From positions 62,001-126,000 of the forward strand of contig DASRFG010000037.1 in assembly GCA_035651655.1 (NCBI GenBank): a stretch of DNA of 64,000 nt. The letters run 5' to 3'. Below, piece by piece: positions 34,758 through 39,032 of the stretch. The notes beneath the pieces were generated by a model. It did not search any database and was not told the DNA's origin. It worked only from the letters and a program-made list of their open reading frames with translations. This DNA comes from Terriglobales bacterium (GTDB taxonomy: Bacteria; Acidobacteriota; Terriglobia; Terriglobales; Acidobacteriaceae). A program made the translations under genes and the position numbers. Numbering within the stretch: position 1 is the stretch's first letter; every line of letters starts with the position of its first letter.

Positions 34758-35444
34758 TCACGACGTAACGTGCAATCCGCACTCAGTCCTGGCGAAACCT
34801 GCCCAGCGTCCGTCGCGGAGATCCTCACCCGGTCGGACAGCTCGGGTGCAATGAGTGCAGCCAATGCTGGGAAAATTCTGCTCGTGCAGCGGGTTGTAAG
34901 GGACGTCATGAAGGCGAATGTACTCCCACACTTTTTCCGTGCTCCAATCGGCCAGCGGATTGATCTTCACCAGCCCGAACTTATCGTCCCAACTTATCTT
35001 CGCTGCGCTCGCCCTCGCCACCGTTTGGTCGCGGCGAATCGCGGTAATCCATGCCCGCAATGTGGCCAACTTTGACTTCAGAGGCAGGACCTTTCTTAGA
35101 TCGCAGCACTGGTCGGGGTTTCGCTTCCATAGTGCTGGCCCATGTTTCGCGGCCTGTTGTTCCGCCGTAAGTTCCGAATACACGCGCTCAACCTTGATCA
35201 AATACCGCTCCTCGATCCTGTCCACCAATTGATATGTCTCGGGAAACAGAAACTCAGTGTCCAGCGTGAACACGCGAAAATCCGGTCGCGCCCGAGACGC
35301 CATGTCAATCAGGGCCACTCCTTCGGCGCCAAATCCGGATGCCATTGCCACGCTGTTGCCAAATGTTTCGAATGCCCAGCGCAGTACCTGATCGGGTGTC
35401 CACTTCTCCGCCAAGGCTTCGATCTTTGCCAGTTCTTCTTTCAT
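34758..35444 (-). CDS. cysH: Adenylyl/phosphoadenylyl-sulfate reductase
   Basis: A 228-residue assimilatory reductase that makes sulfite from APS (or PAPS). The two Cys pairs that hold a 4Fe-4S cluster are present (QCCDLRK and CTHC), which favours APS as substrate, and the catalytic Cys lies in ECGLH near the C-terminus. The nucleotide-binding SGFGAEG is near residue 37. It is the last gene of the sulfite-reduction operon, nine bases downstream of the methyltransferase gene, and falls under the cysteine attenuator. Confidence 0.95.
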   Translation of the reverse strand: MKEELAKIEALAEKWTPDQVLRWAFETFGNSVAMASGFGAEGVALIDMASRARPDFRVFTLDTEFLFPETYQLVDRIEERYLIKVERVYSELTAEQQAAKHGPALWKRNPDQCCDLRKVLPLKSKLATLRAWITAIRRDQTVARASAAKISWDDKFGLVKINPLADWSTEKVWEYIRLHDVPYNPLHEQNFPSIGCTHCTRAVRPGEDLRDGRWAGFARTECGLHVTS

Positions 35445-35453
35445 GATTCGACC

Positions 35454-36269
35454 TTAATCTCCAGCCAGCGATGCTGCATTTTCGAGAGCAGCCACTCTTT
35501 GACCAATCAGCAACTCCGACAAACTCTCGCCGACTCTTCGCTGCTGCTTTGCTAGCCGCACCACCTCACCTACAATCAAAACCGTCGGCGCCGACGCCGA
35601 CATCGAAGCCATCGGCAGCTCACGCACGCTGGTCAAGAGCGTCCTCTCCTCCGAGGTTGTGGCCCCGGATACAAGTGCGCAAGGCGTCTCCGCCTTCACC
35701 CCGGCGGCCATTAACTTTTCGGCTAAATCGTGGTAATCAGAGCCTGGCATGTAGATCACGAGCGTCGCGCCGGATGCGGTTAGGGCCCGCCACTGCTTGG
35801 CATCGTGCGTGTCAGCGCTGTGCCCTGTGATGAAGACCAAGGCCGAAGAAATATTGCGGTGGGTGAGCGGAATCTGCGCGCCCGCCCCGGCGCCCAATGC
35901 AGCGGTTACTCCGGGGACAATTTCAACCTCAACGCCAGCTTTGCGCAGAGCTTCGATTTCCTCGCCACCACGGCCGAAGATAAGTGGATCGCCGCCTTTG
36001 AGCCGCACCACTTGCAATCCCGCGGCAGCGTAGGTCACCAGCAGGGAATTGATCCCCTCCTGCGTAATGGTTTGCCTGCCGCAGCGTTTGCCCACACTGC
36101 GCACCAGTGCCGACGCTGAGGCCAAACTTAATATCTCTCGCCCGACCAACTCATCGTGCAGCACAACATCTGCCGCTCTTAGAATCCTCAGCGCCTTAAA
36201 AGTGAGTAGCTCGGGATCGCCCGGCCCAGCCCCCACCAGATAAACCTTGCCTTTCGTATTCGCGCTCAT
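35454..36269 (-). CDS. cobA: Uroporphyrinogen-III C-methyltransferase
   Basis: A 271-residue SUMT that transfers two methyl groups from S-adenosylmethionine to uroporphyrinogen III, giving precorrin-2. Typical motifs are VYLVGAGPGDPELLTFKALR at the N-terminus, VRLKGGDPLIFGRGGEE and VPGVTAALGAGA. Here it feeds siroheme synthesis for the sulfite reductase encoded upstream. It overlaps the preceding dehydrogenase gene by four bases (ATGA). Confidence 0.95.
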   Translation of the reverse strand: MSANTKGKVYLVGAGPGDPELLTFKALRILRAADVVLHDELVGREILSLASASALVRSVGKRCGRQTITQEGINSLLVTYAAAGLQVVRLKGGDPLIFGRGGEEIEALRKAGVEVEIVPGVTAALGAGAGAQIPLTHRNISSALVFITGHSADTHDAKQWRALTASGATLVIYMPGSDYHDLAEKLMAAGVKAETPCALVSGATTSEERTLLTSVRELPMASMSASAPTVLIVGEVVRLAKQQRRVGESLSELLIGQRVAALENAASLAGD

Positions 36270-36883
36270 CGACGCACCTTTCTCTTGCCAGGCTGTGCCC
36301 CGGATCCGATGCTGCGTTTAAAAGATTCCCGGCTGGCAAGCAGGTGCAAGCGCCGGCGTCTCTGTTCAGGATCCAGATCGGCCGCCAGCAATTTCCGTCT
36401 CGTCTCGCCCAATTCGCTCACCCAGCCCGCGTACTCCTCCCCGTATTGCTCTTCAAGCTCCGCTCTCAGCCTCTGAGCCAGGGCCGGACTTTCCCCTCCG
36501 GTCGAGATCGCAATCTGCAGCCGTCCGCGGCGGACCACTGCCGGATAATAGAAATCACAGTGCTCAGGGTCGTCCACGTTGTTGCACAAAACTTCGCGAC
36601 GGCGCGCCTCTGCATAAATGCGGTGGTTCACTTCATCTGAATCGGTCGCGGCAATCACCAGAAATTGCCCTTCTAGATCGCCTGGCCGGAAGGCCCGCAG
36701 CTCGCAGACAATCGAACCTTCTCGCGCCCACTGGCTCACTCGCTCGTTCACGTCCAACGCGATCACGCGCACCGTAGCGCCCGCCTGCAGCAAGCTTTGG
36801 ATTTTTGGTTCGGCAACCTTGCCCCCGCCCACCACCAGGCACCACCGCCCCGTCAGCTTCATAAACATTGGGAAAAGCTCCAT
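36266..36883 (-). CDS. Precorrin-2 dehydrogenase (siroheme synthase N-terminal type)
   Basis: A 205-residue NAD-dependent enzyme of the CysG-N/Met8 family that oxidises precorrin-2 to sirohydrochlorin and may also insert iron. The Rossmann motif is LVVGGGKVAEPKI, followed by the family's LCNNVDDPEHCDFYYPAVV and AISTGGESPALAQRLR. The start at 36883 has AAGGAG four bases upstream; the frame is open further into the reductase gene but without homology. Together with cobA it replaces a fused CysG. Confidence 0.93.
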   Translation of the reverse strand: MELFPMFMKLTGRWCLVVGGGKVAEPKIQSLLQAGATVRVIALDVNERVSQWAREGSIVCELRAFRPGDLEGQFLVIAATDSDEVNHRIYAEARRREVLCNNVDDPEHCDFYYPAVVRRGRLQIAISTGGESPALAQRLRAELEEQYGEEYAGWVSELGETRRKLLAADLDPEQRRRRLHLLASRESFKRSIGSGAQPGKRKVRR

Positions 36884-36914
36884 AGACTCCTTCCACACCC
36901 GAAGACCGTCAGCC

Positions 36915-38618
36915 TTAACCTTCCGCTCCGTGCGGCACCCGTCCCGGAGACTGGTCGCGCGCAGCCGCCTCGACCACGTCGCCCGCCAGAAATTCCCGCA
37001 GATCCTCTTCGTTGTGCCGCGCGAAAAATCGCCGCAGGTTCTCCCCCGGGAACTTGTAGTCGAGATATCGCCGCAGTAAGCGCTCGATCGCGTCCGGCAC
37101 TTCGGCAGCAACACACCGATATCCAACTGGACGCGCCACCGCCGCGTTTTCTCCAACCGCGCCGCCCAGGCAGAAGTAGTACGCATCCACCAGCTGGTCA
37201 CCATGCTTGATTTTTTTGCCCTCAATACCGATGTCCGCGATCCAGTGCTGTCCGCAACTGTTCGGGCATCCGGTCACGTGCAGCTTCAAATGCTGCTCGA
37301 AACCGGGAAGCCTCTCTTCCAGTTCCTGCACCAGCCATCGCGAAAAACTCTTCGTCTCCGTCAAAGCGAGTTTGCAGAATTCACTGCCGGTGCACGCAAT
37401 GGCTCCCCGCCAGAATGGCGACGCACTCACCGGCAGTCCTATTGCTTCCAGCTCTTTCGCCAGCTGCGCCGCGTTCTGCTGCGGGACATTCACCACCACC
37501 AGGTTCTGCATATTGGTGGTCCGCAGATCACCGTCGGCGTACTGGTCTGCCAAGTCGGCAGCCGCGCGCATTTGCTCAGCCGTGATCCGTCCCCGCAACA
37601 CTGCCGCGCCGACGTATGCCAGTCCCGAATGTTTCTGCGGATGAATGCCGACGTGGTCGCGATAAACATCCTGCGGCGCTTGCTCAGGAACAGCCGCGCT
37701 CAGCCGGAACCCGATTCGCCGCTCCAGTTCCTCCTGGAAACTTTCAGCCGTCCATCCGTGGCGTAGAAAAAGAAATTTCAGCCGCGCCCGACTGCGGTTT
37801 TCCCGAAGCACTTCGCTTTCGCGGAACAATTCGGCGATGCCCTTCACCACCGGCAACACTTGCTTCCACCCGACCAGCGCATTCAGGCGCACTCCCAGAT
37901 GCGGATCGGTCGAGAGCCCGCCGCCTACTCGCACTGAAAAACCCACATCGCTGGTGCCGTTCTGCCGCCGGCTCACCGCGGCGATGCCCACGTCGTTAAT
38001 CTCCGGATAGCTGCACCAAACCCGACAACCGCTGATCGAAATCTTTAATTTGCGGGGAAGATTGTAGAAATCGGCATTGCCCGCCAGGAAATCGTTCACT
38101 TGCATCGCCAAGGGTGAAGCATCGCAAATCTCGTCGGCATCTACACCGGCGAGCGGGCATCCGGTGACGTTGCGCGTCACATCACCGCAGGCAGAGAGCG
38201 TCGTAAGCCCCGATCGCACCAGCGCATCCAGCATTTCCGGCAGCGCCTCGATGGTGACCCAATGCAATTGAATGTTTTGCCGTACCGTGAGATCAGCAAC
38301 TCCGCGGGCATAGCGCTGCGTTATATCGGCAATCGTCCGTAGTTGATCGGAGAGCAGCAGCCCGTTAGGAATCCGGATGCGCACCATGAAGTAGGGAACC
38401 GCTCGCCCCTCGCGCCCCTGTCCGCTAAGGACGCCCATTCCATCGCCCTGGGTATAGATCCCCCACCAACGGAAATAAGTCGTCAGCCATTCCGGCGGGA
38501 TCGCGTCATATCCTTCGCGCGCGAAGCGTCGAATATCGTCCAGGCACTCCCACGGGTTCTTTTCCCGCTTCAGCCGCTCGGCGCGTTGTGCCTTCGTCTC
38601 TTTTGCTGCGTCGTTCAT
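36915..38618 (-). CDS. Siroheme sulfite reductase, ferredoxin-dependent NirA/SirA type
   Basis: A 567-residue sirohaem/4Fe-4S reductase with two ferredoxin-like repeats. The cluster cysteines lie in TGSEFCKLALTE and HVTGCPNSCGQ near residue 420-470, and the substrate-binding region carries VRQNIQLHW and DVTRNVTGCP. The family covers nitrite and sulfite reductases; cysH and the siroheme genes in the same operon, and the cysteine leader ahead of it, indicate sulfite. The start is taken as MNDAAKE at 38618. The gene begins 30 bases after the attenuator U-tract. Confidence 0.9.
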   Translation of the reverse strand: MNDAAKETKAQRAERLKREKNPWECLDDIRRFAREGYDAIPPEWLTTYFRWWGIYTQGDGMGVLSGQGREGRAVPYFMVRIRIPNGLLLSDQLRTIADITQRYARGVADLTVRQNIQLHWVTIEALPEMLDALVRSGLTTLSACGDVTRNVTGCPLAGVDADEICDASPLAMQVNDFLAGNADFYNLPRKLKISISGCRVWCSYPEINDVGIAAVSRRQNGTSDVGFSVRVGGGLSTDPHLGVRLNALVGWKQVLPVVKGIAELFRESEVLRENRSRARLKFLFLRHGWTAESFQEELERRIGFRLSAAVPEQAPQDVYRDHVGIHPQKHSGLAYVGAAVLRGRITAEQMRAAADLADQYADGDLRTTNMQNLVVVNVPQQNAAQLAKELEAIGLPVSASPFWRGAIACTGSEFCKLALTETKSFSRWLVQELEERLPGFEQHLKLHVTGCPNSCGQHWIADIGIEGKKIKHGDQLVDAYYFCLGGAVGENAAVARPVGYRCVAAEVPDAIERLLRRYLDYKFPGENLRRFFARHNEEDLREFLAGDVVEAAARDQSPGRVPHGAEG

Positions 38619-38647
38619 TCGATAGCTTCCCAACCGCAAACTCGTGC

Positions 38648-38687
38648 AAAAACAAAAAACCCACCGCCAGTCTCTGCTGGCGATGGG
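38648..38687 (-). terminator. Attenuator terminator ahead of the sulfite reductase operon
   Basis: On the minus strand CCCATCGCCAG, loop CAGAGA and CTGGCGGTGGG make an 11-bp stem with one U-G pair (38660-38687), followed by T6, G, T5 (38648-38659). It lies between the leader peptide and the first structural gene, so transcription must pass it to express the operon. Its 5' arm can instead pair with the upstream antiterminator strand. Confidence 0.88.
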
Positions 38688-38790
38688 GTATAAGTGCGGA
38701 ATTCAGAAAATCTTTAGATCAGAGCCGCCTCCCATTGCCAGAGAGCACACCCGTACAACAGCTCATACAACACTGACAACGGGTCTGGCA
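38672..38790 (-). promoter_or_regulatory. trp-type alternative stems of the cysteine attenuator
   Basis: Three segments can pair in exclusive ways. Segment 1 TGCCAGA (38784-38790, leader codons 5-7) pairs with TCTGGCA (38736-38742). Segment 2 CTCTCTGGCAATGGG (38731-38745, codons 20-24) pairs with segment 3 CCCATCGCCAGCAGAG (38672-38687), with one mismatch and one bulge, forming the antiterminator. Segment 3 with segment 4 (38660-38670) forms the terminator. A ribosome stalled at the Cys codons frees segment 2 and permits readthrough; one reaching the stop codon covers segment 2 and causes termination. Confidence 0.82.
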
Positions 38791-38802
38791 GGCAGCTAAC
38801 AT
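38719..38802 (-). CDS. Cysteine-rich leader peptide of the sulfite-reduction operon
   Basis: A 27-codon reading frame with six Cys codons, at positions 5, 9, 11, 12, 15 and 16 (core CQTRCQCCMSCC), ending in TGA at 38719-38721. The frame is bounded upstream by TAG, so ATG at 38802 is its only start. That ATG lies nine bases after the -10 box and has no ribosome binding site, so the mRNA is probably leaderless. Position, codon content and the following terminator identify it as the sensor of Cys-tRNA supply. The frame is too short for most gene callers, and nothing suggests the peptide itself has a function. Confidence 0.87.
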   Translation of the reverse strand: MLAACQTRCQCCMSCCTGVLSGNGRRL

Positions 38803-38811
38803 GAAGTTGAA

Positions 38812-38840
38812 ATTCTATGTTCGCGAACGGTAACCGTCAA
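38812..38840 (-). promoter_or_regulatory. Promoter of the cysteine-attenuated operon
   Basis: On the minus strand TTGACG (38835-38840) and TAGAAT (38812-38817) are separated by the ideal 17 bp. The predicted start point falls at or within a few bases of the leader ATG at 38802. The remaining 190 bases up to the esterase gene show only GC-rich short palindromes around 38955-39005. Confidence 0.72.
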
Positions 38841-39032
38841 CAAACCTCGTACGCATCATCTGATTAGTCTGGATTGACCGGCGCATCAATTTATTTTCAG
38901 TCCAATAACATCTGTTACATCTCGGCAATACTGACCGATGCAACTCTACTCTGCGGGGTCCCCACTCTTCAGGGTGCTCGGCTCAAGCTTTGCCCGGGCG
39001 GGGACTTTGCACTAACTGGATCGTTACAACCC

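Follow-up and report, generated by a model that had tools for sequence, protein, structure and literature searches.

The DNA analysed here, referred to below as the window, is a stretch of 64,000 nucleotides (nt) from a Terriglobales bacterium of the Acidobacteriaceae (GCA_035651655.1, contig DASRFG010000037.1, positions 62,001–126,000), and all positions are counted within it. On its minus strand, a short cysteine-rich leader frame and a terminator lie ahead of genes that a first-pass annotation had described as an operon for sulfite reductase, siroheme synthesis and cysH. The last two parts of that description stand. Pfam and NCBIfam both identify a gene for the siroheme synthase N-terminal domain, a precorrin-2 dehydrogenase (36266–36898), a uroporphyrinogen-III C-methyltransferase gene (cobA/cysG C-terminal; 35454–36269) and cysH, encoding phosphoadenylyl-/adenylyl-sulfate reductase (34758–35444). 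The first gene (36915–38618; PF01077, PF03460) encodes a NirA-like ferredoxin sulfite/nitrite reductase, and its ATG at 38618 was taken as the likely start because the alignment of relatives begins there. The best NCBIfam models for this protein are of the NirA type, and all ten models listed score below their own cut-offs; the word 'sulfite' is thus drawn from the context, namely cysH, the siroheme genes and the Cys leader, in which the gene probably encodes a sulfite reductase.

The region upstream of the first gene contains all parts of a putative attenuator, each on the minus strand. A consensus scan places a sigma-70-type promoter, TTGACG-17-TAGAAT, at 38812–38840 (10 of 12 consensus matches), with the end of its -10 element 9 nt from the leader ATG, so that the mRNA would be leaderless or carry a 5' untranslated region of a few nt. 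The leader peptide frame, translated as MLAACQTRCQCCMSCCTGVLSGNGRRL, runs from the ATG at 38802 to a TGA stop (38719–38802) and has 27 codons. Codons 5, 9, 11, 12, 15 and 16 specify Cys, which places six within 12 codons and the last at residue 16 of 27; five are TGT and one is TGC. Folding gives an 11-bp segment 1 core, CCCGTTGTCAG (38773–38783), as the partner of segment 2, CTCTGGCAATGGGAGGCGG (38725–38743), which lies within the 3' end of the leader frame, forms the 5' half of the antiterminator and mimics segment 4. By folding and alignment, segment 3 (38671–38700) consists of CCGC, the inner helix of the antiterminator, and CCCATCGCCAGCAGAG, which contains the terminator 5' arm (38677–38687), and segment 4, CTGGCGGTGGG (38660–38670), is the terminator 3' arm. 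The terminator (38687–38660) is thus an 11-pair stem with a loop of 6, followed by the U-tract TTTTTTGTTTTT (38648–38659), and the first-gene ATG lies 35 nt past the first six T and 29 nt past the last T run. The frame with six Cys in 12 codons, the promoter directly before its ATG and the strong terminator 30 bases before the first gene had all been noted in the first-pass annotation and are borne out here. Within 12 kb, the promoter has the top score among 6 promoter-like sites (shuffles, 5.3) and the terminator the most pairs among 8 terminator-like sites (shuffles, 12.5), so neither is significant on the scan alone. Rfam covariance models gave no match to the leader, with the window searched at gathering thresholds and 38550–38900 at E ≤ 1, one tRNA aside.

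Retention of the Cys codons in relatives had been set beforehand as a test of the leader. Relatives of the first gene were collected from a scan of named genomes (best 80 of 591) and from 150 family genomes, 113 of which had a match; the family loci taken were the 30 best matches and the upstream DNA of 40 more chosen from the list. Removal of L028 and L070, which had too little upstream DNA, and of the identical L087, L095, L102 and L103 left 144 upstream regions. Removal of repeat genomes (L084, L089, L090, L101, L107 and L109) then left 138 distinct loci, 120 from Acidobacteriota and 18 from Rokubacteria/Methylomirabilota; these six repeats are still included in the leader listing, the promoter shuffles and the between-cluster pairing. 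Frames of up to 60 codons with any of three start codons were scanned for the number of Cys per 12 codons. At least six were found in 56 of the 144 upstream regions; none of the 144 reverse strands reached this number, and 1 of 1440 Markov shuffles did. At a threshold of at least four, the counts were 100/144, 5/144 and 43/1440, respectively. Among distinct loci, 94 of 120 in Acidobacteriota have at least four (reverse strands, 4/120), and none of the 18 Rokubacteria/Methylomirabilota loci does. The results show that the Cys codons are kept in most relatives. The relatives' leaders have 4–10 Cys in 12 codons, typical examples being MSASCLARCQCCTCCCMCVSTGARGLLT and MSDSQNLRAVCCCTCCCCACVCTGAGRLLT; that of L121 (G046) reads MNFAFMPVCMCCCCSRTAKAMA.

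The terminator is kept as well, as had also been predicted. Using the 91 distinct ATG-started leaders with at least four Cys in 12 codons, we looked between leader stop and gene for a hairpin of −12 kcal/mol or lower with a U-tract directly after it. Such a hairpin is present in 90 of the 91 (the exception is L127), compared with 5/91 reverse strands and 12/910 shuffles. In a stricter scan, which accepted perfect stems only, 66 of 100 Cys-leader regions had such a stem, as did 3 of 25 regions with at most two Cys. In a group of more distant relatives (e.g. L119–L150), the stems are shorter or interrupted and have a different sequence (CCCGCG...CGCGGG).

The position of the promoter is also shared. 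A -10-like element ends 5–14 nt before an ATG of the leader in 75 of the 91 distinct leaders, 63 of them with at least 9/12 consensus matches. In the 97-leader set, with a spacing of 6–14 nt, promoter sites are found in 80 leaders (68 with at least 9/12 matches), and shuffling the 60 nt upstream reduces this to 8.4% (0.7% for at least 9/12). The sequence before the leader ATG resembles AGGAGG poorly, with 2–3 of 6 positions matching in 69 of 96 leaders, a count for which no control set was scored. Leader mRNAs made from such promoters would be leaderless or nearly so. In the host genome, the promoter-ATG pattern has 20 matches versus 12 for the reversed pattern, and long frames are among those it precedes, suggesting that leaderless initiation may be ordinary in this genome. 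One such site (L253; G000:C23:440045-440087, minus strand) precedes a gene that by eye resembles cysteine synthase, with the ATG 6–11 nt past the -10-like site; this gene is possibly leaderless.

The leaders also differ from the downstream gene in codon usage. TGT outnumbers TGC by 368 to 202 in the leaders, and the ratio is 87 to 705 in the downstream gene (up to 1500 nt). Being the rarer codon there, TGT would suit a sensor of starvation, and avoidance of stable pairing could be an alternative cause of the bias. The pattern TGYTGYN6TGYTGY has 42 matches in the host genome versus 12 when reversed, one of them being the sulfite-reductase leader.

We examined the folding of the leader RNA in the window and in its relatives. 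Of 200 shuffles, 199 fold less well than the 167-nt leader (z −2.88). In isolation, the stems 1:2, 2:3 and 3:4 have energies of −35.5, −23.5 and −20.9 kcal/mol and are mutually exclusive, the 1:2 stem having 11 pairs (z −5.2). For the relatives, alignment A1 was built from 64 sequences past the filter, from which L126, L134, L137, L143, L149 and six identical sequences were removed, followed by six that were hard to align (L038, L050, L051, L112, L113 and L115), leaving 47. The terminator's 11 pairs are intact in 97.5% of A1 cells (27–61% with the partner slid) and the antiterminator's 14 pairs in 91.8% (29–44%). In the main clade, segment 2 encodes a conserved peptide tail, SGAGRLLT. We then simulated ribosome positions by masking the RNA to 13 nt beyond the first base of the A-site codon. 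This test, the tail shuffles and the 1:2-stem test used 46 sequences, L022 (GTG start) being absent as it has no ATG leader. When the ribosome occupies the first Cys codon and segment 4 is still absent, 42 of 46 sequences show segment 3 paired upstream at a mean probability of at least 0.5. A ribosome at the stop codon leaves the terminator with a probability of at least 0.7 in 46 of 46, and the terminator also forms in all 46 with no translation.

Attenuators of the enterobacterial trp/thr/phe/his type have a leader rich in codons of the pathway's amino acid, an intrinsic terminator and a competing antiterminator. The element described here has these same three features, and we consider it very probably a ribosome-mediated transcription attenuator of the trp type that senses charged Cys-tRNA on a leaderless or nearly leaderless mRNA. 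It differs from the enterobacterial examples in that Cys would be sensed, the predicted start is leaderless or nearly so, and the 1:2 stem is variable; in addition, the Acidobacteriota leader frame spans segment 2, whereas the trpL stop codon lies between segments 1 and 2. RNA polymerase would start at the leader ATG or a few nt 5' of it, and a ribosome loading on this mRNA would trail the polymerase. When Cys-tRNA is ample, the ribosome would clear the Cys run, arrive at the stop codon where segment 2 ends and cover this segment; the 3:4 terminator would then form and transcription would stop at the U-tract. When Cys-tRNA is scarce, the ribosome would stall in the Cys run, and the free segment 2 could pair with segment 3 before segment 4 exists. 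With 2:3 paired, the polymerase would continue from the sulfite reductase gene through the siroheme genes to cysH. An untranslated leader would form 1:2 and 3:4, again giving termination. We infer from this arrangement that the leader is translated, that initiation is leaderless, that the ribosome stalls, that the transcript terminates and that cysteine sets the response; the enzymes of sulfite reduction would most likely be made only under cysteine shortage, in the host and in its relatives.

Several observations weigh against such a switch. First, 26 of the 120 Acidobacteriota loci have fewer than four Cys, and the count of three found in 18 of them is reached by 23% of shuffles. Second, the order of three exclusive stems proposed in the first-pass annotation holds in the window but not generally, since the 1:2 stem is weak across the 46 sequences (mean z −1.24; 23% of shuffles equal it); a 1:2 stem common to the relatives is not supported. 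Third, once segment 4 is present, equilibrium folding yields the terminator in nearly all stalled states (exception L008), so the switch has to be co-transcriptional. Some clades have their last Cys codon so near segment 2 that a stall there would mask the segment and favour termination. The antiterminator also fares modestly in controls. Upstream pairing of segment 3 has a mean of 0.60, versus 0.505 with dinucleotide-shuffled tails; 33% of shuffled tails reach the observed value, and 37 of 46 sequences lie above their own shuffle mean. RNAalifold on A1 returns the terminator and a small 3-pair helix, with no antiterminator. Despite the weak shuffle control, antiterminator and terminator are mutually exclusive. 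Finally, compensatory changes, which had been expected in the stems, are slight in the main clade, where covariation barely exceeds that of shuffles and segments 2–4 vary too little to decide. Pairing was therefore tested between clusters (96 leaders in 13 clusters at 70% identity, 74 of them in one, which holds the six repeats, and 11 of the 13 being single sequences). In 12 of 13 clusters, the mean pairing of the leader tail is stronger with the terminator arm of the same leader than with foreign arms (Wilcoxon p = 2.4e-4), which shows that compensatory change is present between distant clusters. Foreign tail-arm combinations equal the own one in 21% of cases on average, and the cluster running the opposite way, L071, is probably no true leader.

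To look for related elements, an RNA model, R1, was built on segments 2–4, which lie 3' of nearly all Cys codons. In the host genome, R1 finds the sulfite-reductase leader (E 3.8e-13) and one further place (E 4.3e-6), the next match being at E 0.079. The second match (L154/L247; G000:C13:66744-66942, plus strand) has a promoter, TTGACG/TATATT, and a Thr/Met/Ile-rich leader, MLSLFQNAGTTTLRTMAMRMRISALLEEGYLS, followed by an aspartokinase gene. Five weak matches (E 0.079–7.2, from a search up to E 10) were set aside, two being reverse strands of real ones and three having no recognisable leader. At E ≤ 0.01, the 80 family genomes searched gave 56 matches, spread over 36 genomes. We read 34 of these loci; the others are for the most part sulfite-reductase leaders and include two reverse strands of matches already listed. 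Among those read, 14 lie before aspartokinase (7 by Pfam, the others by a KFGGTS motif), 3 before homoserine dehydrogenase and 2 before ilvC (Pfam), 14 belong to a Cys group with mostly sulfur genes, and L177 falls outside all groups. In the Cys group, the leaders precede genes for NirA-like reductases (L174, L175 and L199, the last a second type of NIR/SIR protein), siroheme genes (L178, and L179 by eye), cysK (L203), and genes for NMT1-type binding proteins (L200, L202), a rhodanese (L180, by Pfam), a ThiS-like protein (L187), a sulfurtransferase-like frame (L197, by eye, with no Pfam match in the first frame), a carbonic-anhydrase-like protein (L204), a 1-Cys peroxiredoxin (L207) and a gene without a name (L201). 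The carbonic anhydrase, the peroxiredoxin and L201 were grouped by their leader, not by a known sulfur role. Rfam at gathering thresholds gave no match to 18 sister loci, one tRNA aside.

The composition of the leaders follows the gene downstream. Thr makes up 20.1% and Cys 1.8% of leader residues before aspartokinase; in the Cys group, Cys makes up 16.7% and Thr 6.4%. For this count, the Cys group had 16 members, with L209 and L211 added from the R1 search of the phylum, and frames were chosen blind to composition; L187, L201 and L209 came out in a frame that is not Cys-rich, and L196 gave none. The promoter-ATG pattern, which does not depend on R1, picks out in the host genome a Phe-rich leader, MYAVRFSFGAQFFRFWREEAALANRARART, with a terminator (L255; G000:C25:2859, plus strand), followed by a DAHP synthase gene (NCBIfam) and, by eye, a prephenate-dehydratase-like frame. 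Among 199 genomes of the phylum, R1 has a match at E ≤ 0.001 in 8, and 6 of these belong to the window's family, so R1 has a narrow reach and is hardly informative on other classes. Sensor codons that match the pathway are the strongest evidence we have for attenuation; that R1 also finds pathway-matched leaders for other amino acids supports the trp-type reading made in the first-pass annotation. The parts, their conservation, the co-evolution between clusters and the pathway matching in sister elements can be read from the sequences directly. The element is real and conserved, and is one of several predicted amino-acid attenuators with differing sensor codons in these bacteria.

These data also bear on other explanations for the Cys-rich frame. 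It could act by translational attenuation or coupling of upstream open reading frames (uORFs), the poly-Cys leader governing downstream translation and the hairpin being incidental. Mycobacteria offer a precedent, as leaderless Cys-rich uORFs have been reported there before sulfur genes, one of them before nirA (PMC4633059, available extract), and a 2026 paper, in its accessible part, cites Canestrari 2020 for translation attenuation in mycobacteria (PMC13236596). The Acidobacteriota leaders resemble these poly-Cys leaders, as described in those extracts, in being Cys-rich and placed before cys genes and nirA, and perhaps in their predicted leaderless or nearly leaderless start. For mycobacterial cys operons, however, Cys leaders were predicted with no obvious or conserved terminators and with Cys runs near the stop codon, according to the part of PMC1262725 available. 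The leader in the window does not belong to this type: a terminator is present, and the last Cys is residue 16 of 27. It differs from the mycobacterial leaders, so far as these extracts describe them, in its strong terminator, its antiterminator and the location of its Cys codons 5' of segment 2. As the hairpin with U-tract accompanies nearly every leader and a competing antiterminator co-evolves between clusters, we regard control by translation alone as improbable. It is less probable still that the frame encodes a working Cys-rich micropeptide (metal-binding or redox) whose expression the terminator merely tunes. The CC runs would fit this, as would the main-clade tail, which is conserved as peptide too, but the number and order of Cys are highly variable, the tail doubles as RNA able to pair with segment 3, a similar RNA scaffold carries Thr-rich leaders before aspartokinase, and the Cys codons are unusually TGT. 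Similarly far-fetched is a terminator that is constitutive or under another signal (protein, small RNA or Rho) with the Cys run as a by-product: equilibrium folding does prefer the terminator in nearly all states, yet Cys is enriched in many genomes, the amino acid of the sister elements tracks the pathway, and known regulatory RNA families in Rfam give no match.

A transcription attenuator that senses Cys would not be without parallel. In Rhodobacterales, the available extract of PMC8632094 describes a motif, uORFC-8-2, before cysS, with Cys codons and an intrinsic terminator and with predicted stalling in the absence of Cys-tRNA. The element described here likewise combines a uORF containing Cys codons with an intrinsic terminator. 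According to that extract, uORFC-8-2 has two tandem Cys codons before a tRNA-synthetase gene and occurs in Alphaproteobacteria; the Acidobacteriota leaders have 4–10 Cys in 12 codons and precede sulfite-reduction and other sulfur genes. The window's element was accordingly not assigned to uORFC-8-2, its first gene being a NirA-like reductase and not cysS. Naville and Gautheret 2010 imply predicted attenuators in Acidobacteria, almost none with an associated function, and the accessible portion of their paper names no Cys leader for this group (PMC2965389). No description of an Acidobacteriota Cys attenuator was found in the top-ranked open-licence papers, a set that did not include Lopatovskaya et al. 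2010 on bacterial attenuation (cited in PMC4833913), which could cover Acidobacteria. The novelty put forward in the first-pass annotation thus holds for Acidobacteriota as far as these papers go, and is narrowed by the earlier prediction of a Cys-codon leader with terminator in Rhodobacterales. The mechanism and the sensing of Cys are of known kinds; the place, the combination and the shared scaffold are new as far as we have seen.

On balance, we favour the view that Acidobacteriota around Terriglobia use one attenuator scaffold, with leaderless leaders re-coded per locus (Cys, Thr/Met/Ile or Val/Ile), as a general form of amino-acid control. The Cys version would then define a sulfur regulon that extends beyond sulfite reduction to cysK, an NMT1-type sulfonate-like transporter, rhodanese with family 2A encapsulin, a ThiS-like carrier and 1-Cys peroxiredoxin. 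Acidobacteriota are abundant in soil and have few described regulators. The element offers a testable, conserved candidate cysteine switch for assimilatory sulfur metabolism, on a scaffold that seems to have changed its sensor codons in the course of evolution. It would also be a natural case for testing if coupling between the polymerase and a ribosome on a leaderless or nearly leaderless mRNA can be close enough for attenuation. For NirA-like genes, where sequence alone leaves the choice between nitrite and sulfite, a Cys leader hints at the substrate.

Other loci point to possible further targets. Cys-rich leaders at L180 (G065) and L209 (G149) precede a rhodanese gene and a family 2A encapsulin shell gene; the encapsulin piece at L180 matches NF041162 below the cut-off, and that at L209 was recognised by likeness only. 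This suggests that a predicted encapsulin sulfur compartment may be under cysteine control. At L211 (G285), a possible leader, MFNTHQRTSTPCRCACTRIGVSSGMGRLGRII, lies before a gene for a FadL-type outer-membrane transporter. In another family of the phylum, L212 (G333) has at about 1428–1524 a Trp-rich frame, MTTTNYNSRTINAAWYWWSVNVGGCVVWREM, followed by a terminator and a DAHP synthase gene, and is likely an aromatic amino-acid attenuator in a more distant lineage.
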